The notes below the pieces were generated by a model that saw nothing but the letters and a program-made list of their open reading frames with translations, searched no databases and was not told the origin of the DNA. A DNA stretch of 64,000 nt from Microvirga ossetica (GTDB lineage: Bacteria; Pseudomonadota; Alphaproteobacteria; Rhizobiales; Beijerinckiaceae). The stretch is taken from the NCBI RefSeq assembly GCF_002741015.1, contig NZ_CP016616.1:3753501-3817500 (forward strand). The letters run 5' to 3'. Each line of letters opens with the position of its first letter. Within the stretch, counting starts at the first letter, position 1. Shown piece after piece: positions 5,573 through 49,574 of this stretch. A program made the position numbers and the translations under genes.

Positions 5573-5649
5573 GCGCCCGTAGCTCAGCTGGATAGAGCAC
5601 CAGACTACGAATCTGGGGGTCAGAGGTTCGAATCCTTTCGGGCGCGCCA
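5573..5649 (+). tRNA. tRNA-Arg (anticodon ACG)
   Basis: A 77-nt cloverleaf with acceptor GCGCCCG/CGGGCGC, D-arm GCTC...GAGC, anticodon arm CCAGA-CTACGAA-TCTGG with ACG in the loop, a 5-nt variable loop and T-arm AGAGG-TTCGAAT-CCTTT. The discriminator is G and CCA is encoded. ACG is expected to be edited to ICG and to read CGU/CGC/CGA. The gene stands alone. Confidence 0.96.
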
Positions 5650-5719: not shown

Positions 5720-5761
5720 TGCATTGGAGTATCGAGGTTCTGCATTGGAGTATCGAGGTTC
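5720..5761. repeat. Exact 21-bp tandem duplication
   Basis: Two perfect, directly adjacent copies of a 21-bp unit (5720-5740 and 5741-5761) that begins TGCATTGGAG and ends CGAGGTTC. The second copy covers two bases of the stop codon of the small minus-strand HTH gene. A GAGGTT/AACCTC inverted repeat spans the junction. Only two copies occur, so this is a recent local duplication and no array. Confidence 0.85.
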
Positions 5762-5927
5762 AAACCTCTGCGGCTGGCGTGACGCCGAGGTCGTCGAGCT
5801 TGGCGCGAACCTCGGTGACCGGGCGTTTCAGCTTCAGGCTGATGACCGAGACAGGAACGCCTTCTCTGGCGAGGGCCAGGAGGGCCTGCACGGCCTCATA
5901 ATTCCAGTGTTCTCCGGCAGAGTTCAT
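5760..5927 (-). CDS. 55-residue GcrA/Myb-like helix-turn-helix protein
   Basis: A small protein of 55 residues that opens with MNSAGEHWNYEAVQALLALA. The spacing W..E.V..L..L..EG......I...L.R....V..K...LG resembles the N-terminal DNA-binding helix-turn-helix of the cell-cycle regulator GcrA, without the rest of GcrA. It is therefore read as a small DNA-binding protein of unknown target. On the minus strand a GGAAC-N16-GGTT promoter-like motif lies about 90 bp upstream, suggesting general-stress control. The ATG at 5925-5927 is the only start that keeps the conserved Trp near the N-terminus. The coding call rests on the coherent fold-like pattern and on the fit to neighbouring stress genes. Confidence 0.55.
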   Translation of the reverse strand: MNSAGEHWNYEAVQALLALAREGVPVSVISLKLKRPVTEVRAKLDDLGVTPAAEV

Positions 5928-6014
5928 GACATCTGTCTCCGTTGCGAGCCGGGAGGGTCCGCCTCAAGTGAGGCGAGATGATGAAAAAGCGGGGCTGGGA
6001 AAGCTTTCCGCCGC

Positions 6015-6039
6015 AACCTTAGCCGAAGCTGTGCGTTCC
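6015..6039 (-). promoter_or_regulatory. EcfG-type promoter motif for the small HTH gene
   Basis: Read on the minus strand: GGAAC, 16 bases, GGTT. The alphaproteobacterial general-stress sigma EcfG recognises GGAAC-N16/17-CGTT, so there is one mismatch in the -10. It points to the 55-residue HTH gene. Confidence 0.4.
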
Positions 6040-6072
6040 TTGAGAAGGCAACACACTGACAGGGACCGCATC

Positions 6073-6339
6073 ATGAGCATTATCTGGACCATCATTATCG
6101 GCTTCGTGGCTGGTTTGATCGCGAAATGGATCATGCCAGGCCGGAACGAACCGTCCGGCTTCATCATGACAACCATTCTCGGCATCGTGGGTGCCGTCAT
6201 CGCCACCTATCTCGGTCAGGCTCTGGGCTGGTATCGTGCCGATGAGGGGGCAGGTTTTATCGGTGCCATCGTCGGAGCCATCGTCGTTCTGTTCATTTAT
6301 GGCCTGATCGCCGGACGCCGTTCCACTTCGTCCTACTGA
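6073..6339 (+). CDS. GlsB/YeaQ/YmgE family stress-response membrane protein
   Basis: An 88-residue protein beginning MSIIWTIIIGFVAGLIAKWI, with three hydrophobic segments and glycine-rich packing (GFIGAIVGAIVVLFIYGLIAGR). This is the transglycosylase-associated protein family: small inner-membrane proteins induced by envelope or stationary-phase stress, of unknown biochemical role. The longer open frame upstream is discarded because the family N-terminus begins at this ATG, preceded by AGGGAC. It belongs to the stress island, though no clear EcfG motif was found directly in front of it. Confidence 0.88.
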   Translation: MSIIWTIIIGFVAGLIAKWIMPGRNEPSGFIMTTILGIVGAVIATYLGQALGWYRADEGAGFIGAIVGAIVVLFIYGLIAGRRSTSSY

Positions 6340-6394
6340 GTTCTCACGCGCGTCTAGACGGAAAGGCCGCAGCGCTGCTGCGGCCGTTTCCCGT

Positions 6395-6619
6395 TCAGCC
6401 CCGATAGACGAGGCGTTCGCTGTCGTGGCCGCCCGTGATAGCCGCCTTGACCGGGCAATTGCCTACATATCCGCGCCAAGCCAGATAAGAACCGCCGGCG
6501 AGCGCGAGCACGCTCAGCAGCGGGTTCGGGCGCGGCTTGGCTGCCGCGGCGGCGAGGCCAAGGCCCACGAGCATGTAGACCCCGCGTTCGGCGGTGCTGA
6601 GATTGGGCTCTCCGTTCAT
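6395..6619 (-). CDS. DUF2892/YgaP-type small membrane protein
   Basis: A 74-residue protein (MNGEPNLSTAERGVYMLVGL...) with two hydrophobic segments around residues 14-26 and 34-45, then a conserved NCPVKAAI tail. This matches the DUF2892 / rhodanese-less YgaP membrane domain. The ATG at 6617-6619 has AGGAG 12 bases upstream and is preferred over the in-frame GTG three bases earlier. A perfect EcfG-type promoter motif lies on the same strand 30 bp upstream. Function is unknown; it is likely stress-induced. Confidence 0.8.
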   Translation of the reverse strand: MNGEPNLSTAERGVYMLVGLGLAAAAAKPRPNPLLSVLALAGGSYLAWRGYVGNCPVKAAITGGHDSERLVYRG

Positions 6620-6649
6620 CACTTCGGTTCTCCTTGCTTGGCTTTGGCG

Positions 6650-6675
6650 AACGCGACGCGAAGCCCGGTTGTTCC
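6650..6675 (-). promoter_or_regulatory. EcfG-type promoter for the DUF2892 gene
   Basis: Minus-strand GGAAC, 17 bases, CGTT: a full match to the EcfG consensus, ending 31 bp before the ATG of the DUF2892 gene. It lies back to back with the yciF promoter. Confidence 0.65.
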
Positions 6676-6700
6676 GCGCGACGCAGGCGTGACCGGGGCA

Positions 6701-6725
6701 GGAACCTCAAAGCTTGACCTTCGTT
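6701..6725 (+). promoter_or_regulatory. EcfG-type promoter for yciF
   Basis: GGAAC, 16 bases, CGTT on the plus strand, a full match to the consensus. The -10 lies 31 bp before the start codon of the YciF-like gene. Confidence 0.68.
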
Positions 6726-6756
6726 GAGTCCACGCTTCAACCATGGAGTTGTCACG

Positions 6757-7251
6757 ATGCCAGCAAGCGAAAAAACTCTGAACGATCTCTTCCTTCATAC
6801 GCTGAAGGACATTTTCTACGCCGAGAAGCAGATCCTGAAGGCGCTGCCGAAGATGGCGAAGAACGCCGAATCCGAAGAGCTGAAGCAGGCCTTCGAGACT
6901 CATCTCGAAGAAACGCAGGGCCAGATCGAACGGCTGGAAAAAGTATTCGAAATGCTCGGCAAGCCGGCCCGCGGCGTGCAATGCGAGGCGATCAACGGCC
7001 TCATCGAGGAAGGCAAGGAAGTCATGGAAGACTTCGCCGACAGCGCGGCGCTCGATGCCGGCATTCTCGCCGCTGCGCAGGCCGTCGAGCATTACGAGAT
7101 CACCCGTTACGGCTCGTTGAAGACCTGGGCTGAGGAACTGGGCATGCGCGATGCCGCAAAGCTCCTCGATCAGAACCTTCAGGAGGAGAAGAAGACCGAT
7201 CTGCTCCTGACCAAGCTGGCCGAGGCCCGCGTGAATACGAAGGCTGCCTGA
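6757..7251 (+). CDS. YciE/YciF ferroxidase family protein (DUF892)
   Basis: A 164-residue all-helical protein starting MPASEKTLNDLFLHTLKDIF. Carboxylate/histidine positions of a ferritin-like four-helix bundle are visible: YAEKQILKALP, FETHLEETQGQIERLE, and later AVEHYEITRYGSLKTWAEEL. YciF proteins are stress-induced ferritin-like proteins thought to bind a di-iron centre. The start is chosen at the family N-terminus with GGAG upstream, discarding an 11-codon extension. It has a perfect EcfG-type promoter and its own terminator, so it is a monocistronic general-stress gene. Confidence 0.9.
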   Translation: MPASEKTLNDLFLHTLKDIFYAEKQILKALPKMAKNAESEELKQAFETHLEETQGQIERLEKVFEMLGKPARGVQCEAINGLIEEGKEVMEDFADSAALDAGILAAAQAVEHYEITRYGSLKTWAEELGMRDAAKLLDQNLQEEKKTDLLLTKLAEARVNTKAA

Positions 7252-7270
7252 TAGCGGTCTGCCCTTTAAA

Positions 7271-7304
7271 GGCTCCGCGCTCCCGATGGGCGCGGAGCCT
7301 TTTT
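7271..7304 (+). terminator. Terminator after the YciF gene
   Basis: Perfect 9-bp stem GGCTCCGCG / CGCGGAGCC with an 11-nt loop, followed by TTTTT. Confidence 0.85.
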
Positions 7305-7313
7305 CATGAGGTC

Positions 7314-7562
7314 TCAATGGCAATGTGCATTGTCCGGCGCAACCTCCGTATCCAGGATCAGGCGCATGGAGCCGGATGGCGTAATCTCGAGCGCGGCTTT
7401 CATCGTGTCCGGAAATTCGACCAGATGCATGAAGGCGAGAAGCCTGAGGCGCACGATCGGAGGAAGCTGCGCGAGACATTGTGCCAGGGATTGCGATGCG
7501 CGGTCGATCATCTCTTCCTGGACGAAGGAGGCGAGGGGAAGGTTCTCGTCAGGCAGCGACAT
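7314..7562 (-). CDS. Small hypothetical protein coupled to luxI
   Basis: An 82-residue protein, mostly helical and Leu-rich in the middle (RASQSLAQCLAQLPPIVRLRLL). It starts 14 bp inside the end of the luxI reading frame, so it is translationally coupled to the C-terminal part of luxI. No family is recognised. Small genes next to luxI homologues occur in Methylobacteriaceae, but no equivalence is claimed. If ribosomes stop at the TGA in luxI, expression of this gene would fall. Confidence 0.55.
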   Translation of the reverse strand: MSLPDENLPLASFVQEEMIDRASQSLAQCLAQLPPIVRLRLLAFMHLVEFPDTMKAALEITPSGSMRLILDTEVAPDNAHCH

Positions 7563-8190
7563 GGGGCACCCGATTCAGAGGGCCGCGCAGCGGCGCGTTG
7601 CGGACAAGGGCGGAACTGCGCAGTCCTGCGAGGCCGCAGACGCGGTCCAGGCTTTGCTGCGAAATCTCGATCGAGGCCGCGATGCATGGCTGGCCCTCGA
7701 TCACGGTGGGCAGGCCCAGTGGTTTGACCTTGAAGCCGGCCTGGTGCCAACGGGGCAGCCACCACATCTCGACGACCGCCGTAACCTCCGTAATCCCCTC
7801 CTCGAGTCAGAATTGCTGAATGGCTGCGAGAAGCCGACAATCGGTTCGGCCCATCCGTCTCTCCTTAACGACGAAATAGCGCGTCCACTCGAGAACATGC
7901 TGCGCCTTTGGGAGGCCGCGCGGTGCCATATGGCCGAAAACCTCGCTCAGCATGTGCGGCAGAACGGTCGGGTAGAGCCGCTGCCCGCCGACCACCCGGT
8001 CTCCATCGAGGGCGAGCAGGTAGATCGCATCATCGTTGTCGTAATCATCGATCTCGCGCCCGTCGATCTGGTGTAGATCGCGCCATCCTCGCTCGTTCAC
8101 GAATATTTCGTATCTAAGGCGGAAGTATTCATCCAAGATGTCTTGGTATGAATCTCGATTTGTTCTATCGATAACGTGGATTCTGGTCAT
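7549..8190 (-). pseudogene. luxI-like: LuxI-type acyl-homoserine-lactone synthase with in-frame TGA
   Basis: The N-terminal 127 codons encode MTRIHVIDRTNRDSYQDILD, then conserved synthase motifs: RYEIFVNERGW (invariant Arg, Phe, Trp), DNDDAIYLL, VVGGQRLYPT and LEWTRYFV (Glu/Arg). A TGA at 7807-7809 follows ...AAIQQF. The same frame continues without a shift as LEEGITEVTAVVEMWWLPRW and on to VPHVAA, restoring a normal LuxI length of about 213 residues. One substitution, for example a Cys codon TGC to TGA, explains the break. The shortened product lacks the C-terminal acyl-binding region and is probably inactive. An alternative ATG 24 bp upstream could extend the N-terminus by 8 residues. Confidence 0.85.
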
Positions 8191-8254
8191 CTTGCGCAAT
8201 CCCCAATCTTCCATTGATGGGGCAATCCTCGCGCATCCGGGTGACGGCGGATAT

Positions 8255-8268
8255 TGTAGGAAGTTACA
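8255..8268. promoter_or_regulatory. Possible lux box upstream of luxI
   Basis: TGTA, 6 bases, TACA forms a dyad in the short luxR-luxI gap, 65 bp before the preferred luxI start and 10 bp below the luxR stop. Position and dyad shape fit a LuxR-family operator; the match to any published box is only partial. Confidence 0.4.
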
Positions 8269-8277
8269 GGGTCGGCA

Positions 8278-9033
8278 TCATATGCCGATCAGCTTGTACT
8301 GCAGGGCTCGCGCCACGGCCTGGGTCTTGTTGACGGCGTCGAGCTTCTGGCAGGCGCTCGCGATATGGGCGGTCACCGTCCGCTCGGTGATGCCCAAGAT
8401 CTCGCCTGTATCCGCGGCCGATTTTCCGGCGGCGGCCCAGATTAGGGCTTCGCGCTCCCGTGGGGTCAGGAGGCCGGAGCCGGCATGCAGACTGGGCTTG
8501 AGCAATTCCCGGGCACGCTCGAAGGCATACATGGCCATCAGATGCAGGGCGGGCTTCGTCCGGGATGACAGGTCGAGGTCCACGCCGCTCATGGAGAAGC
8601 ACGCCTCGTAGCCGTTGATGCCGTGAATCGGCAGGCAGAAGCCTTCCTTCATCCTGAAATCCGTCGCCCGCTCCATGATCTCGGCAGCTCTCGGCTCGCC
8701 TGCCCGATCGTAGGGAGCTTCCGACCATTCGAAAGGCTGGGTCGTATTCCTGCAGAGGCGGATGATGGGATCGCTGCGCACATAGTCTTCCCTAGCATAG
8801 ATGTCGAACCAGCCCCTGGGCCATTTCTTCAGCAGAACGACTTGCTCGAACCGTTCCCTGGGGCTCGGCAGGCCAGTAATGATGAAGTTTTCGAACCCGA
8901 AGAGGGAAAACGTTTTGGCGACTGCTTCCACGACCTTACCCGGGCTGTCCAGGTGATCGAGGCTATCGATGAAATCGAAGGCCTCCGTTGCATGGTCGAA
9001 GGTGCTGCCGCTCACGGAAATCTCCACAGTCAA
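8278..9033 (-). CDS. luxR-like: LuxR-family quorum-sensing transcriptional regulator
   Basis: A 251-residue protein with an N-terminal autoinducer-binding domain. The ligand-pocket residues are visible in RGWFDIYAREDYVRSDPI (Trp, Tyr, Asp-Pro). A GerE-type C-terminal helix-turn-helix starts LLTPREREALIWAAAGKSAA and contains TERTVTAHIASACQKL. It is intact and lies directly upstream of luxI in the same direction. The start is uncertain: the first possible codon is TTG with no good ribosome site, and a GTG lies two codons later. With luxI interrupted, it may act as a LuxR solo. Confidence 0.9.
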   Translation of the reverse strand: MTVEISVSGSTFDHATEAFDFIDSLDHLDSPGKVVEAVAKTFSLFGFENFIITGLPSPRERFEQVVLLKKWPRGWFDIYAREDYVRSDPIIRLCRNTTQPFEWSEAPYDRAGEPRAAEIMERATDFRMKEGFCLPIHGINGYEACFSMSGVDLDLSSRTKPALHLMAMYAFERARELLKPSLHAGSGLLTPREREALIWAAAGKSAADTGEILGITERTVTAHIASACQKLDAVNKTQAVARALQYKLIGI

Positions 9034-9123
9034 TACAACTTTTAGTTAAATATTATAGATATACTACCAAAAGTTTTAGAAATGGCCTAGATAGGAAAAG
9101 GCAGAGCAAAGCAGGAGCGGCGG

Positions 9124-9510
9124 TTGCAAAAGAAGTCTCCCAACCAGGTCGACAGGCATATCGGCAGCCGCGTCAGGGCGCGGCGGCTCATGCTTGGAAT
9201 GAGCCAGGAAAAACTCGCGGACGCCTTGGGGCTTACCTTCCAGCAAGTTCAGAAATACGAGAAAGGCGTGAACCGCATCGGCGCCAGCCGCCTGCTTCAC
9301 ATCGCCGGGATCCTGGATGTCAGCATCGAGTTCTTCTTCGAAGGGCTCCCCGGGCTGCGTGCGGGAGGGTTCTCCGATGACAGCCTCGTGGCGGAATTTC
9401 TGACGCGATCGGAAAGCGACCGCCTTGTCCGCGGGTTCCTGAAGCTGAAGGACGACGAAGCCCGCAGGAAGGTCGCCGACCTGGTCGATTGGCTCGCTTC
9501 GGTGAGCTAG
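9124..9510 (+). CDS. XRE-family helix-turn-helix regulator
   Basis: A 128-residue Cro/C1-type repressor. Residues about 11-65 form the HTH (IGSRVRARRLMLGMSQEKLA then ALGLTFQQVQKYEKGVNRIG), followed by a short helical C-terminus (RSESDRLVRGFLKLKD). This compact type is highly repeated in Rhizobiales genomes. The start is TTG at 9124, well placed behind AGGAG; there is no ATG before the HTH. It is divergent from luxR across a 90-bp AT-rich gap, so it could regulate luxR or itself; that is inference from position only. Confidence 0.88.
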   Translation: MQKKSPNQVDRHIGSRVRARRLMLGMSQEKLADALGLTFQQVQKYEKGVNRIGASRLLHIAGILDVSIEFFFEGLPGLRAGGFSDDSLVAEFLTRSESDRLVRGFLKLKDDEARRKVADLVDWLASVS

Positions 9511-9565
9511 AGGGGGAGGCGGCGAACCGTGTCCGGTGCTAAAGCATTGGGCCCTGGGAAGGTTC

Positions 9566-9591
9566 GGAACCTGCCGCGCTTCTAAATGGTT
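9566..9591 (+). promoter_or_regulatory. EcfG-type promoter for the DUF883-like operon
   Basis: GGAAC, 17 bases, GGTT; one mismatch in the -10 against CGTT. It ends 28 bp before the first gene of the four-gene stress operon. Confidence 0.5.
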
Positions 9592-9619
9592 AGACACTCA
9601 CGATTAAGAGAGGTCTACC

Positions 9620-10147
9620 ATGGGCGTGGGACAGCAGAACACCAACAGCCAACAGGACAATGGCAACGAGGATTGGGATGCGCTGAAAGGCGATGTCGGC
9701 GACATTGCCGGCGCCGCAGTGGAGCGCAGCCGCTATTTCATCGATTCGGCGCGTGAGCAGGCAACCGATTATGCCGACCGCCGCAAGGACGATGTCGCGG
9801 CATCGGTCGCGGACTTCGCGAATTCCCTGCGCGAGTCCACGCGGTCCTTCGACGAGCGCCCCAACATCCGCGCCGTCGTCGACAGCGCCGCCGAAGGCCT
9901 AGAGCAGCTGGCGGAATCGATCCGCGAGCGCACCTTCGCCGATTTCTTCAACGAATTCGAGGATGTCGTGCGCCGTCGCCCGGCAACCGTGGCCGCCGTA
10001 TCGGTCGCCGTCGGATTCCTCGCCGCCCGCTTCATCAAGAGCACGGCGGAAGATCTCCGCTACGATGACGCTGGTCACGCCGCGGCTCGCGGCGCACGGG
10101 CCCCTGTCCGCCAGGCGCAGCGCCCGCGCACACAGACCGGCGCCTAG
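9620..10147 (+). CDS. DUF883/YqjD-like membrane-anchored stress protein
   Basis: A 175-residue acidic, helical protein with a C-terminal hydrophobic anchor (RRRPATVAAVSVAVGFLAAR, about residues 117-136) and an Arg-rich tail. Its plan resembles YqjD/ElaB (DUF883) proteins, tail-anchored and linked to stationary-phase ribosome or membrane association; the match is by architecture, not by clear motif. First gene of a four-gene operon behind an EcfG-type promoter. The ATG has AGAGAGG upstream. Its stop codon overlaps the GTG that precedes the next start. Confidence 0.75.
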   Translation: MGVGQQNTNSQQDNGNEDWDALKGDVGDIAGAAVERSRYFIDSAREQATDYADRRKDDVAASVADFANSLRESTRSFDERPNIRAVVDSAAEGLEQLAESIRERTFADFFNEFEDVVRRRPATVAAVSVAVGFLAARFIKSTAEDLRYDDAGHAAARGARAPVRQAQRPRTQTGA

Positions 10148-10158
10148 TGGGGACCGCC

Positions 10159-10548
10159 ATGCAGGGCAACAACCAAACCATCCAAGGTCTCGTCGGCGAG
10201 GCGCTGCGGGAATCGACCGATCTCGCGCAGAAGGAACTCACTCTCTTCCGTACGGAGATTTCCCAGAACATCCGTACTCTCTTCCTGGGCCTCGCCATGG
10301 TGGTCGTGGCGGCAATCTTCGCCATCGCTGCCTTGATGCTGCTGACCGAGTCGCTTGTCGAATGGCTGGCGACGGTCGTCAATTCCGAGGCCCTGGCCGC
10401 GCTCATCGTCGGTGGCGTCATGGCTCTGATCGCCATCGGACTCGGGCTATGGGGCCGCAGCACCATGACATCGTCCTCGCTTGCGCCGGAGAGAACGATG
10501 CGCTCGCTCAAGCGTGATGCGGAAGTTCTGTCGGAAAGAGGTGCATGA
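10159..10548 (+). CDS. Holin-X / DUF1469-like phage-holin-family membrane protein
   Basis: A 129-residue protein with an amphipathic N-terminus (GLVGEALRESTDLAQKELTL) and two strong membrane helices (about 42-66 and 77-99). This is the Actinobacterial Holin-X/DUF1469 plan, common in alphaproteobacterial stress operons and unrelated to actual phages. GGGGA six bases upstream selects ATG 10159 over the GTG at 10147. It ends in an ATGATGA overlap with the next gene, so the two are translationally coupled. Confidence 0.78.
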   Translation: MQGNNQTIQGLVGEALRESTDLAQKELTLFRTEISQNIRTLFLGLAMVVVAAIFAIAALMLLTESLVEWLATVVNSEALAALIVGGVMALIAIGLGLWGRSTMTSSSLAPERTMRSLKRDAEVLSERGA

Positions 10549-10961
10549 TGACGCAGAGCTTGCACGATCTGGAGCAGGACATCGCGCGCAGCCGCGCCCA
10601 GCTCGACCGGACCATCGATCGTCTGCAGGACAAGATGTCCGTCTCGGGTGTCGTCGACGACATGCTCGGCACTGCGCGCACCAGTCAATATGGGCCGCTC
10701 TATGACCGGGTTCTGGAAACGGTCAAACGCAATCCGGTTCCCGTGATGCTGATCGCGTTGGGCATTGGCCTTCTCGCCCACCGGCTCAGCCGACCGCCAT
10801 CCAGATCCCATAAACGGCTGATCGCCGCCGATGAGGATCTCATCACCGAGGAGCACCTCTTGATGGAGATGGAAGACTCGCGACTTTACGGCTCGCAGGC
10901 CGATCCGCTGCAGCGCTCCGACGAGCTTTTCGAGAGTCCCAGCACGACACCCCGCTTTTAG
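10548..10961 (+). CDS. DUF3618 domain protein
   Basis: A 137-residue protein beginning MTQSLHDLEQDIARSRAQLD, the DUF3618 signature in which a helical segment (DRTIDRLQDKM) precedes a membrane helix (NPVPVMLIALGIGLLAHRL, about 65-83). The rest is a charged cytoplasmic tail. Two consecutive ATGs occur; the second is better spaced from AGAGG. Usually found beside holin-X and DUF883-like genes, as here. Function is unknown. Confidence 0.82.
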   Translation: MTQSLHDLEQDIARSRAQLDRTIDRLQDKMSVSGVVDDMLGTARTSQYGPLYDRVLETVKRNPVPVMLIALGIGLLAHRLSRPPSRSHKRLIAADEDLITEEHLLMEMEDSRLYGSQADPLQRSDELFESPSTTPRF

Positions 10962-10991
10962 CGATTTCAGTGAATTGAACAGGAGCTTTCC

Positions 10992-11681
10992 ATGGTGAAT
11001 AACAAGAACGAGACCGGCCGTTCGGCCAATGACAAGCAGAGTGGAACGGAGACAGGTACCGCGGGCAAAGTATCCGCAGGAACGTCCGTCGGGAATATCG
11101 GCGAGGCCCCGATGCCGCATGCGCACGATCAGAAATCCGCGCAAGCAGGGAGCAGCCAGGGTCAGCAGAAAGGCCAGTCCTCGCAGAATGCGCAACGTCA
11201 GGACGACTCCCTGACCGGCAAGGCTCAGCAGGCTGCCGAGCAGGTGCGCGACCGGGCCGAGGATGTCTATGAAGGCGCGTCGGAATGGGCACAGGACACT
11301 TATGGGCGTGCGTCCGAGTGGGCCTCCGATGCCTATCAGAACCAGCGCCGTCGTGCGGCTCATGTGGGCAACCGCTCTGCAAGCGCGTTCGGCCATGCCC
11401 GCGGAGGCGTTCAGAGCTACGTGTCCGAGAATCCGATGGTCGTGGGTCTCGTCGGCCTGGCAGCCGGCCTGCTCCTGGGCGCCTTGCTGCCGCGCACCCG
11501 ACGCGAGAACGAGATGTTCGGCGAATGGGCGGATGAGGTTCGCAATCAGGGAGTGCGCTACGCCCGCGAAGCCGCCGATCGCGGCCGTGAATATGTCGAA
11601 GAGGCGTTCAACGGCGACGATGCACGCTTCAGCCGGCATGACAGCGAGTTCGGCGGCCAGAAAGATGCGAACCGGCACTGA
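10992..11681 (+). CDS. Glycine-zipper membrane-anchored stress protein
   Basis: A 229-residue protein. The first 75 residues are low-complexity and Gln/Ser/Gly-rich. A helical repeat region follows with recurring A/W/Y spacing (EGASEWAQDTYGRASEWASD), as in DUF883/LEA-like proteins. Next come a glycine-zipper membrane helix (MVVGLVGLAAGLLLGALLP, about 149-167) and an amphipathic C-terminus. Last gene of the EcfG-type operon, 30 bp after DUF3618, with AGGAG upstream and a strong terminator behind it. A membrane-protective role is inference. Confidence 0.75.
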   Translation: MVNNKNETGRSANDKQSGTETGTAGKVSAGTSVGNIGEAPMPHAHDQKSAQAGSSQGQQKGQSSQNAQRQDDSLTGKAQQAAEQVRDRAEDVYEGASEWAQDTYGRASEWASDAYQNQRRRAAHVGNRSASAFGHARGGVQSYVSENPMVVGLVGLAAGLLLGALLPRTRRENEMFGEWADEVRNQGVRYAREAADRGREYVEEAFNGDDARFSRHDSEFGGQKDANRH

Positions 11682-11704
11682 TCCCCGAGGTCAGCCAAAT
11701 AGAA

Positions 11705-11736
11705 AGAGCGCCGGTGAAAGCCGGCGCTCTTTTTTC
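11705..11736 (+). terminator. Terminator of the stress operon
   Basis: Perfect 10-bp stem AGAGCGCCGG / CCGGCGCTCT, loop TGAAAG, then six T. Confidence 0.9.
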
Positions 11737-11741
11737 ATGAA

Positions 11742-12103
11742 GCCAATATCGGCAACAGTAAAAACAACAACGGCCACGGCGAAAATGATGCGCGTACATC
11801 CGGCGTCATCAGATCTGCAACGTGACCGCTTCTGGTGGTCAATCATGTGGACAATCATGCCACCAGGTTGATCATGAGATAGGAATGGGGCGGGCCGGTT
11901 TCAAGCGGCGGCGCTCTATCGGCGGCGTTTCTCAGCCCGCATGGCGTTAACCCTGAATTCTCAAACTTCCGATGTGCCGAGCCAATTTCAGGAACTCTGG
12001 GGCCATGAACCGGTTGCTTCCATGCTGGGACAAAGTTCCCGCTCTCCAAAAGGCTTTTCGGCTCGGGAAGTTGGCCTACTGGGCCAGCGAGTAGGGGTTT
12101 GGC
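11742..12103. other. Gene-free leader region before the receiver gene
   Basis: No convincing gene here. It holds a CTGGTGG/CCACCAG inverted repeat (11832-11866) whose loop includes two similar CAATCATG words, and the EcfG-like motif listed separately. A 74-codon frame starting at 11941 has no family character and overlaps the next gene. Confidence 0.5.
11991..12015 (+). promoter_or_regulatory. EcfG-like promoter upstream of the receiver-uvsE pair
   Basis: GGAAC, 16 bases, GGTT (one mismatch). It lies 88 bp before the receiver gene, implying a leader of about 80 nt. Confidence 0.4.
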
Positions 12104-12457
12104 GTGCGCATTCTGATCCTGGAAGACGATCCGATGATCGCTTTGGATTTGCAGGCGATCCTTGAGGCCGAGGGGCACGAGGTTCCCGATGCGCTGAGTT
12201 CTCTGTCCGAAGCCTATCGGCATCTCGATGACGGTTTCGATTGCGCCTTGCTCGACATCGATGTGGTCGGCGGCAAGAGCTTCGGCGTGGCCGAGGCGCT
12301 CATCGAACGGCAGATCCCGTTCGTTTTCGTGTCGGCCTCCAAGCGGTCCGATCTGCCCCGGCCGCTCCAGCAGGCCGCCTTCATCGCAAAGCCATACGAT
12401 GAGCAGGCACTTCTTGATTCCGTCGGAGACATCGCAGGCAATCGATTGCTGTGCTAG
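12104..12457 (+). CDS. Receiver-only response regulator
   Basis: A 117-residue single-domain CheY-like receiver with no output domain. It shows MRILILEDDPMIALDLQ (acidic pair Asp9/Asp10 after Glu8), the phospho-acceptor Asp in CALLDIDVVGG, the Ser in FVFVSAS and the Lys in FIAKPYD. Such proteins act by protein contact or as phosphate sinks. The start is GTG with AGGGG upstream. It lies 44 bp before uvsE in the same direction and probably forms an operon with it. The cognate kinase is unknown. Confidence 0.88.
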   Translation: MRILILEDDPMIALDLQAILEAEGHEVPDALSSLSEAYRHLDDGFDCALLDIDVVGGKSFGVAEALIERQIPFVFVSASKRSDLPRPLQQAAFIAKPYDEQALLDSVGDIAGNRLLC

Positions 12458-12501
12458 AGCATCGGGCAGAATCTCGTTGCCCCGCAAACAACATCCTCAT
12501 C

Positions 12502-13536
12502 ATGCAAGACTCGCGATTCGGCTTCTGCTGCAAATATATTCCCGAAGACGGCTCCGCTCAGACCGCGCGGGAGATGAACACGAGCACGGTGACGATGACC
12601 TATCTCGGCCGTCTGGAACCAAGCGCCGCCTACGACAAACTCGCATCCGTCGTCGCGCATAACCTGGAAGCGTTCCGGCTCCAGATCGCGCATGTAGCGA
12701 CCCGGCCGAAGCGCGAGCGCCTGCACCGCCTTTCCAGCGATCTGCTCCCCGGCTACACGCATCCGGGCTGCCACGACTATTACCGCGATCCCGATCTGCG
12801 CCGGCTCATCGAGACGAAGCTTTCTGCCCTGGGACAGATCGCCCGTGACGGGGATGTCCGCCTCAGTATGCATCCGAGCCAGTTCTGCGTGATCGCCTCG
12901 GCCAATCCCGCAGCCGCGGCGAACGGTCGTGCGGAATTCGAGTATCACGCCGAGATTATGGCTCTCATGGGATTCGGCGGAGGCTGGCATCCGCATGGCG
13001 CGCACGTCAACATTCATGGCGGCGCGAAGGCTGTCGGAGCGGAGGGCATCCGTAGCGGGCTCAAGCATCTGTCCCAGACGGCCCGAAACCTGATCACGGT
13101 CGAGAATGACGAGGTCAGCTTCGGTCTCGACGACCTTCTGCCCCTTGCCGACGAGGTGCCGCTCGTTCTCGACCTTCACCATCACTGGATCATGAGCAAG
13201 GGCGAATATATCGAGCCTGACGATCCACGGATCGGACGCATCGTCGCTTCCTGGCGCGGCGTGCGGCCTGTGAGCCATGTCAGCGTCTCCCGGGAGGATC
13301 TCCTGCCGGATCAGGACATCGCGGCGCTTCCCGATTTCGAGGTGCTGGTGGCGGCAGGGATCAAGCCGAAGGATCTGCGCGCCCATTCGGACCTCATGTG
13401 GAACGAGGCGGTCAACGACCTGGTGTTGCGCCATCTGTCCTGGTCCGATTTCGAGATCGAGGCCAAGCTCAAGAACATCGCCACCGAGGGATTGGTGCGC
13501 CATGTCGAAAAACGACTAGCGCCGGCAGGCATATGA
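12502..13536 (+). CDS. uvsE: UV damage endonuclease UvsE/UVDE
   Basis: A 344-residue TIM-barrel nuclease that nicks 5' to UV photoproducts and some other lesions, starting alternative excision repair. Family motifs: N-terminal RFGFCCKYIP, HPGCHDYYRDP, RLSMHPSQFCV, HGAHVNIHGG, TVENDEVSFG, VPLVLDLHHHW and AHSDLMWN, which supply the metal-ligand His, Glu and Asp residues. The family N-terminus fixes the start at ATG 12502 (MQDSRFGFCC), discarding 17 upstream codons. It follows a receiver gene behind an EcfG-like motif, so stress induction is likely. Confidence 0.95.
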   Translation: MQDSRFGFCCKYIPEDGSAQTAREMNTSTVTMTYLGRLEPSAAYDKLASVVAHNLEAFRLQIAHVATRPKRERLHRLSSDLLPGYTHPGCHDYYRDPDLRRLIETKLSALGQIARDGDVRLSMHPSQFCVIASANPAAAANGRAEFEYHAEIMALMGFGGGWHPHGAHVNIHGGAKAVGAEGIRSGLKHLSQTARNLITVENDEVSFGLDDLLPLADEVPLVLDLHHHWIMSKGEYIEPDDPRIGRIVASWRGVRPVSHVSVSREDLLPDQDIAALPDFEVLVAAGIKPKDLRAHSDLMWNEAVNDLVLRHLSWSDFEIEAKLKNIATEGLVRHVEKRLAPAGI

Positions 13537-13566
13537 AATAGCATTGCAAATGACTCGTTTTTCCTT

Positions 13567-13591
13567 GGAACCGAACCGATTTGGTGGCGTT
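13567..13591 (+). promoter_or_regulatory. EcfG-type promoter for the second receiver gene
   Basis: GGAAC, 16 bases, CGTT: a full consensus match, ending 33 bp before the start codon of the receiver gene. Confidence 0.65.
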
Positions 13592-13624
13592 GTCGGACAT
13601 TGTTCAGTGAGCCAAAGACAGTTG

Positions 13625-14074
13625 ATGTCCGACCCTTCCACGATCCTCCTCGTCGAAGACGAGCCCCTGATCCGCCTGTTCATCTCAGATCTTCTCGAAG
13701 ACGTCGGCTTCAAGGTCGTCGAGGCAGCCAACGCGGCCGAGGCCCTGGTTCTGCTGGAGGCGGGATTGCAGGTTGAGGTTCTCCTGACGGATGTGGACAT
13801 GCCCCTCGGGTGCAGTGGCTTCGAGCTTGCCCACCGCGTGCATCGGACCTGGCCGGCGACCGAGATCCTGATCATGTCGGGTCGGCAATGGCCGTCTCAG
13901 GGCGATCTGCCTCCCGGCGCGGCCTTTCTGGCCAAGCCCTGCCCGAATGAGTCGATCGTGTCACATGTCCAGTCGGCGGTAGAACGGACGAAGCGAGCTT
14001 GGCATGTTGCCAAAAACCCACGGCCATCGGTCGAACAGCCTGCCAAGGTTCTGCCCTTCCCGAAAACCGCCTAA
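13625..14074 (+). CDS. Receiver-only response regulator (stress-linked)
   Basis: A 149-residue CheY-like receiver: MSDPSTILLVEDEPLIRLFI (Glu-Asp pair), phospho-Asp in VLLTDVDMPLG, Ser in ILIMSGRQ and Lys in AFLAKPC. The 35-residue C-terminal extension has no visible domain. An earlier in-frame ATG (13544) would place the start upstream of the promoter motif and is rejected. With a perfect EcfG-type promoter it is likely part of the general stress response. No kinase adjoins it. Confidence 0.88.
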   Translation: MSDPSTILLVEDEPLIRLFISDLLEDVGFKVVEAANAAEALVLLEAGLQVEVLLTDVDMPLGCSGFELAHRVHRTWPATEILIMSGRQWPSQGDLPPGAAFLAKPCPNESIVSHVQSAVERTKRAWHVAKNPRPSVEQPAKVLPFPKTA

Positions 14075-14259
14075 ATTCCTGAAGTCCGGCTTGCTGACGG
14101 CGTTGCACGGACATAAGCTCTGCCGGAATTGACCTTCTGTCAGGGGGCCGGGTACCGGTAAGTCTCTCCGGGATGCCCGACCGACGATCGGTCAATGAGC
14201 TTTCGGGCCCGGCTACAGGGCTGTCGATAAGCTTTCCCATACGATTCCCGGAGGAATAC

Positions 14260-14583
14260 ATGCCGACCAAGACTACAGACGGAAAAGCCGGTGCGAAGAA
14301 GGCTGCAGACAAGCCTGCCGCTAAGAAGGCTGCCGGCTCCAAGCCCAATGCTCTTCAGAAGCCTTTGCAGCCGTCCAAGGAACTGGCCGCCATCGTAGGC
14401 TCTGATCCGCTGCCGCGTGGCGAGGTCGTGAGCAAGATCTGGGATTACATCAAGAAGAACAACCTTCAGAATCCCGAGAACAAGCGCGAGATCATCGCCG
14501 ACGACAAGCTGAAGCCAATTTTCGGCAAGCCGAAGGTGACGATGTTCGAGATGAACAAGCATCTCGCGCAGCACCTCAAATAA
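14260..14583 (+). CDS. SWIB/MDM2 domain protein
   Basis: A 107-residue protein. The first 40 residues are a Lys/Ala-rich, histone-tail-like region (AGAKKAADKPAAKKAAGSKP). The rest is a SWIB/MDM2 domain: LQKPLQPSKELAAIVG, EVVSKIWDYIKKNNLQ, IIADDKLKPIFG and VTMFEMNKHLAQHLK. In eukaryotes and Chlamydia such domains occur in chromatin or topoisomerase proteins; in Rhizobiales stand-alone copies with basic tails are probably nucleoid-associated. GGAGG six bases before ATG 14260 fixes the start. Confidence 0.93.
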   Translation: MPTKTTDGKAGAKKAADKPAAKKAAGSKPNALQKPLQPSKELAAIVGSDPLPRGEVVSKIWDYIKKNNLQNPENKREIIADDKLKPIFGKPKVTMFEMNKHLAQHLK

Positions 14584-14592
14584 GATCGCTTA

Positions 14593-14702
14593 GCGCATCG
14601 TGCGGAAAGTGGATCCGGTTTTCCGCGAAAAACGATGCGCCAACTAAGAAGGAGCATCGGATTGGATCCCAAAAGTTGAATCCACTTTTGGGTCCGATGC
14701 TC
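14593..14702 (+). repeat. Bipartite intergenic palindrome, copy 1 (modules A and B)
   Basis: Module A (14593-14640) is a hairpin bounded by GCGCATCGT / ACGATGCGC. Module B (14652-14702) is a hairpin bounded by GAGCATCGGA / TCCGATGCTC with a CCAAAAGT/ACTTTTGG core. Both also occur at 28669-28781 in reverse orientation; module B alone occurs at 17812-17861. A dispersed REP-like element. Confidence 0.85.
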
Positions 14703-14714
14703 TGGCTGATTTCA

Positions 14715-15329
14715 TCAAGAATCCTGCCGCCACTTCGTGAGCGGCAGGATATCCGGCCTCTGACCCGGGGCCTTCTCCCACGGATCCACCGCCCATTCCG
14801 CCCCTGTCCGTTTCTCGGCGATCACAGCGGTGAAATGCGGATAGCGTCCATCGAGGAAGAAGCCGCGCGATTCCGGGTATTCCACCACATGATGGGTCAG
14901 AAGCCCCTGGTCCTGCAGGACCAGAAGCAGGCTCGTCGTGTTCGCGGTCTCGTCCAGGCAATCCATCTGCCCGTAGACGCCAGACATCTGGGGCGGTGAG
15001 CCGGGTCTGTCCGGCTTTCCCCCGAAGGACGCCGCCAGATAGGCCGTATAGGACCGGACCACATCGCCAAGGGCACGGCGTTCCGCGTCAGGCGACCCCT
15101 GTCCCGTCCGCAGGATGGTCCTAGCCTGGCTCAGCCATGTCCCGTCGACGGAAATCTGCATCCGGCGCACGCAGCCATAGCCGTGACAGGCGATGATCCG
15201 GCCCCCCGCGGGCCCGACATAGCCCTGCTGGTTGAACCAGCTTTCCGCCGGCAGGGAGCTGGCCGCTGCCGGCGCCGTCATGAACAGGAATGGCAGGGCT
15301 GTCAAAATGAGAAGTGGCGTCGATCTCAT
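14715..15329 (-). CDS. Secreted hypothetical protein
   Basis: A 204-residue protein with a Sec-type signal peptide (MRSTPLLILTALPFLFMTAP, cleavage near AAASS-LPAE). The mature part contains CHGYGCVRRMQIS, conserved YGQMDCLDETANTTSLLLVL and HFTAVIAEKRTGAEWAVDPW. The Cys and Asp/Glu pattern and the VDPW ending resemble a conserved Rhizobiales periplasmic family, but no function is known. The start is taken at the signal peptide, discarding 21 upstream residues. It is divergent from the aminotransferase gene. Confidence 0.78.
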   Translation of the reverse strand: MRSTPLLILTALPFLFMTAPAAASSLPAESWFNQQGYVGPAGGRIIACHGYGCVRRMQISVDGTWLSQARTILRTGQGSPDAERRALGDVVRSYTAYLAASFGGKPDRPGSPPQMSGVYGQMDCLDETANTTSLLLVLQDQGLLTHHVVEYPESRGFFLDGRYPHFTAVIAEKRTGAEWAVDPWEKAPGQRPDILPLTKWRQDS

Positions 15330-15442
15330 GATGGCGATACCTATCCTCGAAAGGCTGCAGGTGCCCTCGGGGATATAGGTCGAGCGGTTCATCTGCCCAT
15401 AGGTTAAGCTTGGTGGAATCGCGTTACGCCTTTGGAGTTGGC

Positions 15443-16306
15443 ATGTCCCGCATCGTCTTCCTGAATGGATCCTTTCTCCCGATCGAAGAGGCCAAGGTGC
15501 CCTTCATGGACCGCGGCTTCCTGTTTGGCGACGGAGTCTACGAAGGGGTCGGGATGCTGGACGGGCGCCTGATCGACAACGAGGCTCATCTCGAGCGCCT
15601 GGAGCGCTCGCTCGGCGAGGTCCGCATCGCCAATCCTTATTCCAAGGCCGAGTGGACCGCCCTGCAGGAAGAACTCGCGCGCCGAAACGGCATGACGGAG
15701 GGCTTCATCTACTTCCAGGTCACCCGCGGCGTTGCCGAACGGGATTTCTTCTTTCCGGAGAACGCCAAGCCCACGGTTGCGATGTTCACGCAGGCCAAGG
15801 CCATCGCGAATGCGCCGGCGGCGGAGAAGGGAATCGCCGTGGTCACCGTGCCGGATCTGCGCTGGCAGAGGCGGGATATCAAATCGATCAACCTGCTCGC
15901 GCAGGTTCTCGCCAAGCAGGCGGCCAAGGAGGCCGGAGCGCAGGAGGCTTGGCTGGTCGAGGACGGATTCGTGACGGAGGGAGGCTCGTCGAGTGCCTTC
16001 ATTGTCACGAAAGCAGGGAGCATCGTCGTGCGCCCGCTCTCCCAGGCCATCCTGCCAGGGATCACGCGCAAATCCCTCCTGCGGCTCTCGCAAGAAAGCG
16101 GGATTGTCCTCGAGGAACGTCGATTCACGGTCGCGGAGGCCTATGAGGCGGGGGAAGCCTTCCTGACCAGCGCCTCGAATTTCGTGCTGCCGGTGGTGTC
16201 CATCGACGGACGCCCCGTTGCCGACGGCAGGCCCGGCCCGATCACGACGAGGTTGCGCCAGCTCTACCTGCAGATGGCAAGCGCGCCGGCGATGGCTGCG
16301 GAATAG
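15443..16306 (+). CDS. dat: D-amino-acid aminotransferase (class IV PLP enzyme)
   Basis: A 287-residue fold-type IV PLP aminotransferase. It contains the N-terminal FMDRGFLFGDGVYEG motif and the catalytic Lys in DIKSINLLAQVLAKQAA. The phosphate-binding and carboxylate regions are EAWLVEDGFVTEGGSSSAFI and EAFLTSASNFVLPVVSIDG. D-amino-acid transaminase supplies D-Glu/D-Ala for peptidoglycan; branched-chain aminotransferase and aminodeoxychorismate lyase are relatives, but SSSAFIV and overall length favour DAAT. The family N-terminus (MSRIVFLNGSF) sets the start. Confidence 0.88.
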   Translation: MSRIVFLNGSFLPIEEAKVPFMDRGFLFGDGVYEGVGMLDGRLIDNEAHLERLERSLGEVRIANPYSKAEWTALQEELARRNGMTEGFIYFQVTRGVAERDFFFPENAKPTVAMFTQAKAIANAPAAEKGIAVVTVPDLRWQRRDIKSINLLAQVLAKQAAKEAGAQEAWLVEDGFVTEGGSSSAFIVTKAGSIVVRPLSQAILPGITRKSLLRLSQESGIVLEERRFTVAEAYEAGEAFLTSASNFVLPVVSIDGRPVADGRPGPITTRLRQLYLQMASAPAMAAE

Positions 16307-16313
16307 CTTTGCC

Positions 16314-16338
16314 GGAACCCGCTTCCGGGTCGCCCGTT
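16314..16338 (+). promoter_or_regulatory. EcfG-type promoter for the proline-rich secreted protein
   Basis: GGAAC, 16 bases, CGTT: a full consensus match. The -10 ends 21 bp before the ATG, with AAGGAG in between. Confidence 0.6.
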
Positions 16339-16359
16339 GCCTTCGCAAAGGAGTGATCC

Positions 16360-16713
16360 ATGAAGCGCGTGCTGGTCCTATCCACGATCCTTGCAGCCGG
16401 TCTTGGCACCGCTGCGCTGGCGCAGAACCCTGAAGTGCTGCAGCAGCGGCCGCCTAACATGCCGGCGCCTAACCAGATGCCGGCGGAAAAGATCGAGCCC
16501 AATACCGATGGCGGCACGACGAGCGGCCCGTCTGAGACGGGGTCCACCAACACCTTGAGCGACAAGCTGGAGCGGTCGGACGGCGTGATCCGGCCCCCGG
16601 AGAGCGCCACGCCCGACATCACCGTGCCCGCGCCCGTGCCGGATCCCAACTCGACGCCGGTCATCCGTCCTCCGGGAAGTCCGGGCGGCAATCAACAGGT
16701 CGTTCCGAAGTAA
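16360..16713 (+). CDS. Small secreted proline-rich protein
   Basis: A 117-residue protein with a clear signal peptide (MKRVLVLSTILAAGLGTAAL, cleavage at LAQ-NPE). The mature part is disordered and rich in Pro, Asn, Ser and Thr, with repeated RPP/PAP words and no Cys. No family is recognised. The strong AAGGAG site and a perfect EcfG-type promoter suggest a periplasmic stress protein; the function is not known. Confidence 0.75.
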   Translation: MKRVLVLSTILAAGLGTAALAQNPEVLQQRPPNMPAPNQMPAEKIEPNTDGGTTSGPSETGSTNTLSDKLERSDGVIRPPESATPDITVPAPVPDPNSTPVIRPPGSPGGNQQVVPK

Positions 16714-43833: not shown

Positions 43834-45042
43834 TTACTGCGTGGCCTGGCAGCCGCTGTCGGCAACCGAGAGATAGGCCTGGTCGCCAGGGACCTTGGCG
43901 AGCTGCTTGTACATGTCCCACTCGCTCTTGCTCTCGTCCGGCTTCTTCACCTGGAAGAGATACATGTCGTAGACCATGCGGCCGTTGGACAGGACCTTGC
44001 CCTTCTTGGCGAAGACATCCTCGACGGGCATCTCGTGCAAGGCCTTTGCCACCGGCTCGGTCGCGTCCGTGCCAGCCTTCTGGATCGCCTTGAGATACTG
44101 CGTCACGGCGGAGTAGGTGCCCACATGGATCATGTTCGGCATGCGGCCGGTCTTCTCCTGGAACTTCTTCGCGAAGGCGCGGTTCTCGTCGCTCTGATCC
44201 CAGTACCAGCCCTCGGTCAGGGTCAGGCCCTGGGCGGCCTTGAGGCCAAGGCCCTTCACCTCGGCGAGCGTGAAGAGAAGCGCCGCAAGGCGGGTGCCGC
44301 CCTGGGTCAGGCCGAACTCCGCGGCCTGCTTGATCGCGTTCGCGGTATCGAGGCCGGCATTGGCCATGCCGATCACGTTCGCGCCGGAGCTCTGCGCCTG
44401 CAGCAGGAAGGACGAGTAATCCGTGGCGGCGAGCGGATGGCGTACGGCGCCGAGCACCTGTCCGCCCTTCGACTTCACGAATTTCGAGGTCTGCTCCTCA
44501 AGAGAGTAGCCGAAGGCATAATCGGCGGTGAGGAAGAACCACTTGTTGCCGCCGTTCTCCACCAGCGCGCCGCCGGTGCCGACCGCGAGAGCATGGGTGT
44601 CGTAGGCCCAGTGGAAGCCGTAAGGAGAGCACTGCTTGCCGGTCAGATCCGTCGTCGCGGCGCCGGTCGTCATCGTGATCTTCTTCTTGTCCTTCGACAG
44701 GCCCTGCACGGCAAGCGCCACCGAGGACGTGGTCAGCTCCATGATGGAATCGACCTTTTCCGTATCGTACCATTGCCGCGCGACGCTGGCGGCCACGTCG
44801 GGCTTGTTCTGATGGTCGGCGCTGACGATCTCGACGGGCACGCCGAGAACCTTGCCGCCGAAATCCTGCACGGCCATGCGCGCGGCCTCGACGGAGGACT
44901 TGCCGCCGAAATCTGCATAGACGCCGGACTGATCGTTCAGGATGCCGATCTTGACCACGCCGTCGGAGGCCTGCTGCGCATAGGCCGACTGCGCCAACAC
45001 GGTGCAGCTGAGAGCGAACAGAATCTTATTGAGAACTCGCAT
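43834..45042 (-). CDS. Liv-type periplasmic substrate-binding protein
   Basis: A 402-residue type I periplasmic binding protein. Signal peptide (MRVLNKILFALSCTVLAQSA, cleavage before QQASD). VVKIGILNDQSGVYADFGGK opens the mature domain, with PVEIVSADHQNKPDVAASVA and WFFLTADYAFGYSLEEQTSK further on. Heads a five-gene operon with livG/F/H/M. The cluster context with a GMC oxidoreductase and an aldehyde dehydrogenase leaves open that the ligand is an amide, urea or other small organic compound instead of leucine. Confidence 0.9.
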   Translation of the reverse strand: MRVLNKILFALSCTVLAQSAYAQQASDGVVKIGILNDQSGVYADFGGKSSVEAARMAVQDFGGKVLGVPVEIVSADHQNKPDVAASVARQWYDTEKVDSIMELTTSSVALAVQGLSKDKKKITMTTGAATTDLTGKQCSPYGFHWAYDTHALAVGTGGALVENGGNKWFFLTADYAFGYSLEEQTSKFVKSKGGQVLGAVRHPLAATDYSSFLLQAQSSGANVIGMANAGLDTANAIKQAAEFGLTQGGTRLAALLFTLAEVKGLGLKAAQGLTLTEGWYWDQSDENRAFAKKFQEKTGRMPNMIHVGTYSAVTQYLKAIQKAGTDATEPVAKALHEMPVEDVFAKKGKVLSNGRMVYDMYLFQVKKPDESKSEWDMYKQLAKVPGDQAYLSVADSGCQATQ

Positions 45043-49194: not shown

Positions 49195-49428
49195 ATGCCT
49201 ATAAATGGGGCCTGGAATTTTCCTGAGAGCGCTTTGGAAGAATTTGCCTTAGCGGCGCGAGACGTTCTCCGTAGATCGAAGCCAATATCCGAGCTTACTG
49301 CTTGCCGGATTCGAATGCCGATCGCGAAAATTTTATGCGAAACCATCCGCGAGCGACGCGCGTTTCTTTCCCGCATATCCAGTTCAGGAGAAATGTCATG
49401 GATAACGATCGCGCCGAAGGCAGCATGA
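49195..49428 (+). CDS. Possible small hypothetical protein overlapping csbD start
   Basis: A 77-residue frame, MPINGAWNFPESALEEFALA followed by RRSKPISELTACRIRMPIAK. The AAGGA site five bases before the ATG and the coherent helical first 50 residues are in favour. The last part runs over the start of csbD in another frame and looks untypical, so the gene may be a degraded remnant. Confidence 0.35.
   Translation: MPINGAWNFPESALEEFALAARDVLRRSKPISELTACRIRMPIAKILCETIRERRAFLSRISSSGEMSWITIAPKAA
49339..49363 (+). promoter_or_regulatory. Weak EcfG-like motif before csbD
   Basis: GAAAC, 17 bases, CGTT: one mismatch in the -35. The spacing and distance (35 bp before the ATG) fit the other stress promoters in the window. 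Confidence 0.35.
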
Positions 49429-49574
49429 AGACCATAAAGGGCCGCGTGAAGGAGGGCCTGGGCAAGGCCCTGGGTGACACGAAGCTAGAGACCGAAGGCA
49501 AGATGGACAAGGCGGAGGGCAAGGTCCAGAACGCCATCGGCGGCATGAAGGACTCGCTGCGCAAAAGCACCTGA
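49398..49574 (+). CDS. CsbD-family stress protein
   Basis: A 58-residue hydrophilic helical protein: MDNDRAEGSMKTIKGRVKEG, DTKLETEGKMDKAEGKVQNA and a GGMKDSLRK end. This is the CsbD signature (G.kGrvKEavGk..gd..lea.Gk.dka.Gk.q). CsbD proteins are general-stress induced and of unknown function. AGGAG lies upstream. Confidence 0.93.
   Translation: MDNDRAEGSMKTIKGRVKEGLGKALGDTKLETEGKMDKAEGKVQNAIGGMKDSLRKST

Follow-up and report, generated by a model that had tools for sequence, protein, structure and literature searches.

Introduction

The closest described counterparts of the system considered here are the EcfG regulons of Methylobacterium extorquens and Sphingopyxis granuli, EcfG being the sigma factor of the general stress response. 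For M. extorquens, the available part of PMC4814048 gives GAAC-N16,17-C/GGTT as the EcfG consensus, reports that the six EcfG paralogues studied recognise similar promoters, and names Methylobacterium as the genus richest in EcfG proteins. In S. granuli, GGAAC-N16-CGTT was found together with GCAAC, TGTT and CATT variants, and departures from CGTT reduced the output of a given promoter (PMC7083833, in the portion of the article at hand). Here we describe a 10-kb block in the genome of the soil bacterium Microvirga ossetica, in which seven promoters of this type precede genes that are very probably controlled by EcfG. The block lies in a stretch of 64,000 nucleotides (C1:3753501-3817500, referred to below as the window) of a 9.63-Mb genome in six contigs, and positions given without a contig label are those of the window.

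Two further systems bear on individual genes of the block. The yqjCDEK operon of Escherichia coli is composed of yqjC, yqjD, yqjE and yqjK. The YqjD protein of E. coli is controlled by RpoS (PMC8778775, available part). FATGUY receivers are defined by a PFXFATG(G/Y) motif (PMC5964349, likewise a partial text).

Seven EcfG-type promoters are clustered within 10 kb

Seven exact GGAAC-N16/17-(C/G)GTT elements stand ahead of seven genes or operons between positions 6015 and 16338, all on the correct strand and at promoter distance. An initial annotation, made from the letters of the sequence alone, had listed these elements and assigned four of them to the full CGTT form; every one was located ahead of the gene named, and the count was four CGTT and three GGTT. 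On the minus strand, GGAAC-N16-GGTT (6015-6039) precedes an open reading frame (ORF) of 55 residues and GGAAC-N17-CGTT (6650-6675) precedes a DUF2892 gene. On the plus strand, GGAAC-N16-CGTT (6701-6725) is found ahead of a yciF-like gene, GGAAC-N17-GGTT (9566-9591) ahead of a four-gene membrane operon, GGAAC-N16-GGTT (11991-12015) ahead of a receiver gene and uvsE, GGAAC-N16-CGTT (13567-13591) ahead of a second receiver gene, and GGAAC-N16-CGTT (16314-16338) ahead of a gene for a secreted protein.

The window holds eight exact matches, compared with 1.27 in shuffled sequences, and none of 100 shuffles reached eight. We called a match promoter-placed when it lay outside genes, on the same strand and 5-150 nt ahead of a gene start; all seven block sites qualify, and the eighth match (44160-44184) does not. 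The background consisted of 79 stretches of 20 kb from the main chromosome only (1.58 Mb), with genes called by a simple home-made codon-usage method (coding fraction 0.74) and with the phyR-nepR-ecfG locus excluded. Promoter-placed matches in these 1.58 Mb numbered 13 for GGAAC-N16/17-CGTT and eight for GGTT. The CGTT motif ranked first among 360 permuted motif pairs, with 13 matches against a mean of 1.28 (true pair included) and six for the runner-up. Eight of its matches were at N16 and five at N17, against 0-2 at 13 other spacings; the spacing peak of GGTT was less clear (three at N16 and five at N17, against 0-2 elsewhere). When single substitutions were scanned, only GGTT was prominent besides CGTT, with eight matches against 0.67 at off spacings, and eleven further variants scored 4-6 and were indistinguishable at this sample size.

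Against this background, 0.14 promoter-placed matches were expected in the 10.3-kb block and seven were observed (Poisson P = 1.6e-10, or about 3e-7 once genome size is crudely corrected for; the edges of the block were defined by the motifs themselves). No background stretch of 20 kb contained more than three, so that an equal density in intergenic DNA, proposed in the initial annotation as a refutation, was not seen in this sample.

The promoter elements are conserved across Microvirga

The best 33 matches to the uvsE gene of the window among named genomes were all from Microvirga, with Microvirga zambiensis the closest at 91%. In a conservation set of 33 Microvirga loci, we scored 150 nt upstream of each gene, with gene starts carried over from the window; rows were left out when the match was partial or weak or the upstream DNA too short. 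GGAAC-N16/17-NGTT was kept ahead of the DUF2892 gene (31/31), yciF (31/31), the membrane operon (33/33), receiver-uvsE (32/33), the second receiver (32/32), the secreted protein (32/32) and the 55-residue ORF (20/26), compared with 1 of 401 cases ahead of 13 other genes of the block that served as control. At most promoters both boxes appeared in the alignments as islands of identity, and the promoters of yciF and the membrane operon showed a conserved spacer as well. Three permuted controls also scored highly. GAACG-TTGC at the 55-residue ORF (23/26, true motif 20) and CGGAA-CGTT at the secreted protein (29/32) are one-base slides of the same sites, and GAACG-GTTC at yciF (30/31) is the divergent DUF2892 promoter on the opposite strand. 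A pattern that came from a permuted control, CGAAG-N16/17-TTCG, was present ahead of the SWIB gene (upstream of 14260) in 15 of the 33 Microvirga loci.

The first base of the -10 box was always C at the DUF2892, yciF and secreted-protein promoters, and at the second receiver it was C in 31 loci and A in one. The element of the 55-residue ORF, where exact, was always GGTT, and the membrane operon had GGTT in 32 loci and TGTT in one. At receiver-uvsE, the base was T in 15 loci, C in 14, G in two and A in one.

Gene order, where the genes are present, was identical in all 33 loci. All eight marker genes (the 55-residue ORF, DUF2892, yciF, OpA, first receiver, uvsE, second receiver and secreted protein, where OpA is the first gene of the membrane operon) were found in 26 of them, and some of the others were interrupted by contig ends. 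In Microvirga massiliensis, the part from the 55-residue ORF to yciF and the second receiver are missing at this locus. Five of 24 same-genus genomes had no uvsE match. In these five, the OpA relatives keep GGAAC-N16-GGTT in every case (5/5), and GGAAC-N16/17-(C/A)GTT stands ahead of eight of nine yciF matches (four at 80-86% and four near 55% identity; the ninth, at 28%, was unscored). OpA and YciF are about 13-44 kb apart in three of these genomes and are neighbours in two.

Related promoters at phyR-nepR-ecfG and csbD

In the same genome, phyR, nepR and ecfG adjoin, as identified with Pfam, and GGAAC-N16-CGTT stands ahead of phyR and again ahead of nepR-ecfG. Together with the published consensus (PMC4814048 and PMC7083833, both in their available parts), these promoters make direct EcfG control the simplest reading of the block. 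The phyR-nepR-ecfG locus (C1:1094922-1100414) contains nine (C/G)GTT matches in 5.5 kb, some of them not promoter-placed, so the 10-kb block is not unique. Motifs of this form were also observed there ahead of a DUF1328 gene and a short-chain dehydrogenase gene.

The genome encodes 13 EcfG-like open frames that are 52% or more identical to the canonical EcfG, for example at C1:1098172, C1:3886143, C1:2576830, C4:491869 and C2:1167250. They were found among 22 genome matches, the other nine being fragments or relatives at 37-42%. NepR gave 17 genome matches, 13 of them above cut-off. Among 31 Microvirga genomes, matches to the EcfG query ranged from 2 to 23 per genome (E up to 1e-20; the counts include fragments as well as other extracytoplasmic function (ECF) factors), and those to NepR from 2 to 17 (E up to 0.001).

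Outside the cluster, the variant promoter GAAAC-N17-CGTT (49339-49364, plus strand) precedes csbD (49398-49574, plus strand; PF05532, E = 4.8e-17). A weaker site had been noted here, near 49.4 kb, and it is indeed imperfect, yet conserved in relatives. Among 30 csbD relatives, the window's own copy included, a script found CGTT with GAAAC in 18 and with GGAAC in one; by eye, six had GCAAC and two AGAAC with CGTT, one had GAAAC with CATT, and two had none. GAAAC or GCAAC with CGTT was thus present ahead of csbD in 24 of 30 relatives, in part by eye.

Genes downstream of the promoters

The 55-residue ORF (5760-5927, minus strand) encodes a putative small helix-turn-helix protein, as judged from a look at the sequence and from source names; a Pfam scan of it returned nothing above cut-off. 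A search that detects only sequences sharing short exact words found 119 relatives among 120 candidates, and the nine whose name gives the organism are all from Microvirga. In the alignment, a palindrome-like conserved stretch lies between this ORF and a Transgly_assoc gene (about 5945-5990), a possible operator. The DUF2892 or YgaP-like transmembrane protein (6395-6622, minus strand) clears the Pfam cut-off narrowly (PF11127, E = 3.3e-6, 27.6 bits against 25.3), and the assignment of the YciF-like DUF892 protein (6757-7251, plus strand; PF05974, E = 1.6e-63) is secure. At the other end of the block, a proline-rich protein with an apparent signal peptide, recognised by eye (16360-16713, plus strand), belongs to no known family; it had zero matches in a Pfam scan and was found in all 33 Microvirga loci.

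The membrane operon begins with OpA (9620-10147, plus strand), a helical-looking protein with a hydrophobic C-terminal stretch that is conserved as far as Methylobacterium; it has no Pfam family above cut-off, and none of its orthologues matches DUF883. OpB (10159-10548, plus strand) is a Phage_holin_3_6 membrane protein (PF07332, E = 1.1e-25), which we take to be YqjE-like, and OpC (10545-10961, plus strand) is a DUF3618 protein (PF12277, E = 1.1e-9), the holin-X and DUF3618 assignments both being secure. OpD (10992-11681, plus strand) is a possible C-tail-anchored protein that weakly resembles DUF883: two of 11 orthologues match DUF883 (best E 0.0016) and four of 11 match DUF883_C (best E 0.0042), and the window copy matches neither profile; the DUF883 cut-off was not reached. 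Among the family names proposed initially, DUF883-like applies weakly, and the helix-turn-helix label found no Pfam match above cut-off.

A terminator-like hairpin (11701-11734, plus strand; -26.3 kcal/mol, z -6.7), whose 3' arm ends in six U, follows OpD; it was not among the calls of a consensus scan. Because this strong hairpin ends the membrane operon, receiver-uvsE, which a further promoter precedes, probably forms a unit of its own. Of 47 loci outside Microvirga, mostly from Methylobacterium, 22 have the operon no more than some 6 kb from uvsE, and GGAAC-N16/17-NGTT was found at most 300 nt ahead of it in 22/22 (first -10 base 11 G, 10 T, 1 A and 0 C). From 9566 to 9615, the promoter spacer and downstream bases are near-invariant in most of 20 aligned Microvirga sequences and differ in the five species without a uvsE match.

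The first receiver (12104-12457, plus strand) is an SdrG-like protein consisting of a receiver domain alone, and its best PDB matches are 2lpm (E = 6.7e-12), presumably the FATGUY protein Sma0114, and 5ieb (SdrG, E = 8.9e-12). PFxFVSAS is present in 32 of 33 Microvirga orthologues (PFVFVSAS in the window copy) and PFxFATG in none of the 33, which places them outside the FATGUY motif PFXFATG(G/Y). It is followed by a UvdE/UvsE-type ultraviolet (UV)-damage endonuclease (12502-13536, plus strand; PF03851, E = 1e-36), which reached 127.1 bits against a cut-off of 24 for Pfam UvdE, matched PDB 3tc3 by profile (E = 6.1e-17) and stayed under the TIGR00629 equivalog cut-off (97.2 against 124.45 bits). 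The second single-domain receiver (13625-14074, plus strand; PF00072, E = 3.5e-15) carries a C-terminal tail with LPFPKTA in 26 of 32 orthologues and PFxKxA in 31 of 32.

Between yciF and the membrane operon, the profile match of a LuxI-like autoinducer synthase frame (7807-8214, minus strand) stops at 108 of 183 model positions; this frame is possibly a broken luxI. A LuxR-like gene (8278-9033) adjoins it, and the next frame has no Pfam match.

Interpretation and alternative explanations

Judging from sequence and its conservation, the 10-kb block is very likely a cluster of direct EcfG general stress response targets in Microvirga. A clustered stress regulon had been suggested at the outset, and the excess of seven promoters over expectation, the conserved elements and the same promoter type at phyR-nepR-ecfG support that suggestion. 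In the scheme that we propose, stress kinases would phosphorylate PhyR, which would bind NepR and so release EcfG, and free EcfG would transcribe the seven units of the block. By their families, YciF may have a ferritin-like role, the YqjD/YqjE-like membrane operon may anchor ribosomes or protect the membrane in non-growing cells, UvsE may repair UV lesions, and the DUF2892 and secreted proteins may act in the envelope. The two single-domain receivers could exchange phosphate with the stress kinases and thereby provide feedback. By analogy with S. granuli (PMC7083833, available part), the fixed non-C -10 box of the membrane operon would lower its output.

Several points weigh against this reading. 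The strict (C/G)GTT form is present at receiver-uvsE in only 16 of 33 loci (10 of 20 in an earlier set of relatives), where TGTT is the commonest -10 form, and TGTT is not enriched among the promoter-placed sites of the genome (1 against 1.33 at off spacings). The exact site of the 55-residue ORF is absent in 6 of 26 loci. Counts over the 33 Microvirga loci lack independence because of the relatedness of these loci, and the background was built from a single replicon with a home-made gene caller. Several EcfG-like sigma factors are encoded in the genome, any of which could act on the block. Most of the families had been described as stress-linked in alphaproteobacteria; among those of the block and the window, csbD alone was found in print as a general stress response target (PMC7083833, available text). 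For the others no such support was found: none of the EcfG papers among the matches listed names uvsE, UvdE, YciF or DUF892 in its available text, and DUF892, CsbD, DUF883 and SWIB are all absent from the main text of PMC6599016 as far as it was available. A background scan of the genome, recommended in the initial annotation, gave a divided answer: raw matches showed no excess (330, as 154 + 176, against 386, as 193 + 193, for the reversed motif), but promoter-placed CGTT matches were clearly in excess, as given above. The motif by itself therefore predicts poorly, and placement and conservation carry the case.

An alternative that we regard as unlikely accepts the elements as real ECF promoters and shares them out among the 13 EcfG-like factors, each preferring a particular first -10 base or -35 box. 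The number of these frames and their identity are consistent with it, as are the bases fixed at individual promoters: the -10 box of the membrane operon never begins with C (33 Microvirga and 22 other loci), those of DUF2892, YciF and the secreted protein always do, and the -35 box of csbD is mostly GAAAC or GCAAC. However, similar promoter recognition is reported for the M. extorquens paralogues (PMC4814048), and in S. granuli such variants alter promoter strength (PMC7083833; available parts of both). More doubtful still is a divided stress response in Microvirga, in which about 13 EcfG proteins would read the promoter-specific departures, such as GGTT at the operon and GAAAC at csbD, and the block would feed back on the system through the PFxFVSAS receiver, acting as a stress-induced phosphate sink for stress kinases.

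A mobile or recently acquired island is a highly improbable reading of the block. A tRNA-Arg(acg) gene (5573-5649) flanks it, and the genes missing in M. massiliensis and the five genomes without a uvsE match would fit such an origin, but the gene order common to 33/33 loci leaves it unsupported, and Pfam scans of the 20 block proteins revealed no integrase (no integrase-specific search was made). That the motifs reflect chance or another constraint, for example a different GGAAC-binding regulator, and are clustered by accident agrees with raw genome counts that do not exceed the reversed-motif control and is hardly credible in view of the placement and spacing statistics, the conservation and the same motif ahead of phyR and nepR-ecfG, chance clustering being rejected by the shuffles, the placement statistics and the observed seven against 0.14.

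Under direct EcfG control, the genes of the block are best read as new members of the known EcfG regulon, and the block, retained in most Microvirga genomes of the comparison, looks like a real but rather unremarkable part of a stress response already known, a few of its members being unstudied. By comparison of genomes, they amount to a list of genes that EcfG probably controls in Microvirga; unstudied among them are those for the 55-residue protein, the proline-rich secreted protein and the two receivers, and the UvsE-type repair gene. With the fixed non-consensus boxes, promoter choice by paralogues versus promoter strength becomes testable on eight natural promoters. Among the literature matches listed, no paper brings together Microvirga, EcfG and the general stress response in its available text.

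Comparison with known systems

The membrane operon shares with YqjD/ElaB/YgaM and yqjCDEK of E. coli a C-terminal membrane stretch, a holin-X-type partner and, probably, dependence on a sigma factor for general stress (RpoS in the case of YqjD; PMC8778775, available part). In Microvirga, however, the profile matches are weak, the promoter is of the EcfG type in place of RpoS, and uvsE is nearby. The first receiver resembles the FATGUY receivers SdrG and MrrA by its nearest PDB matches, 5ieb and 2lpm, and differs from them in carrying PFxFVSAS in place of PFxFATG(G/Y).

The EcfG regulon of S. granuli TFA has several features in common with the promoters described here: GGAAC or GCAAC as the -35 box, a CGTT box that can vary to TGTT or CATT, and csbD as a target (PMC7083833, available part). 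In Microvirga, some variants are fixed per promoter throughout the genus, and csbD of the window has GAAAC. With the regulon of M. extorquens, M. ossetica shares the promoter type and multiple EcfG and NepR paralogues (PMC4814048, available part), its 13 EcfG-like frames and 13 NepR matches above cut-off contrasting with six EcfG proteins there. According to the available part of PMC4814048, all six ecfG genes of M. extorquens AM1 lie away from phyR and lack a promoter of this type, whereas the canonical ecfG of M. ossetica adjoins nepR and phyR and has a GGAAC promoter. A further difference from M. extorquens is that in Microvirga several of the probable targets are clustered in one block.

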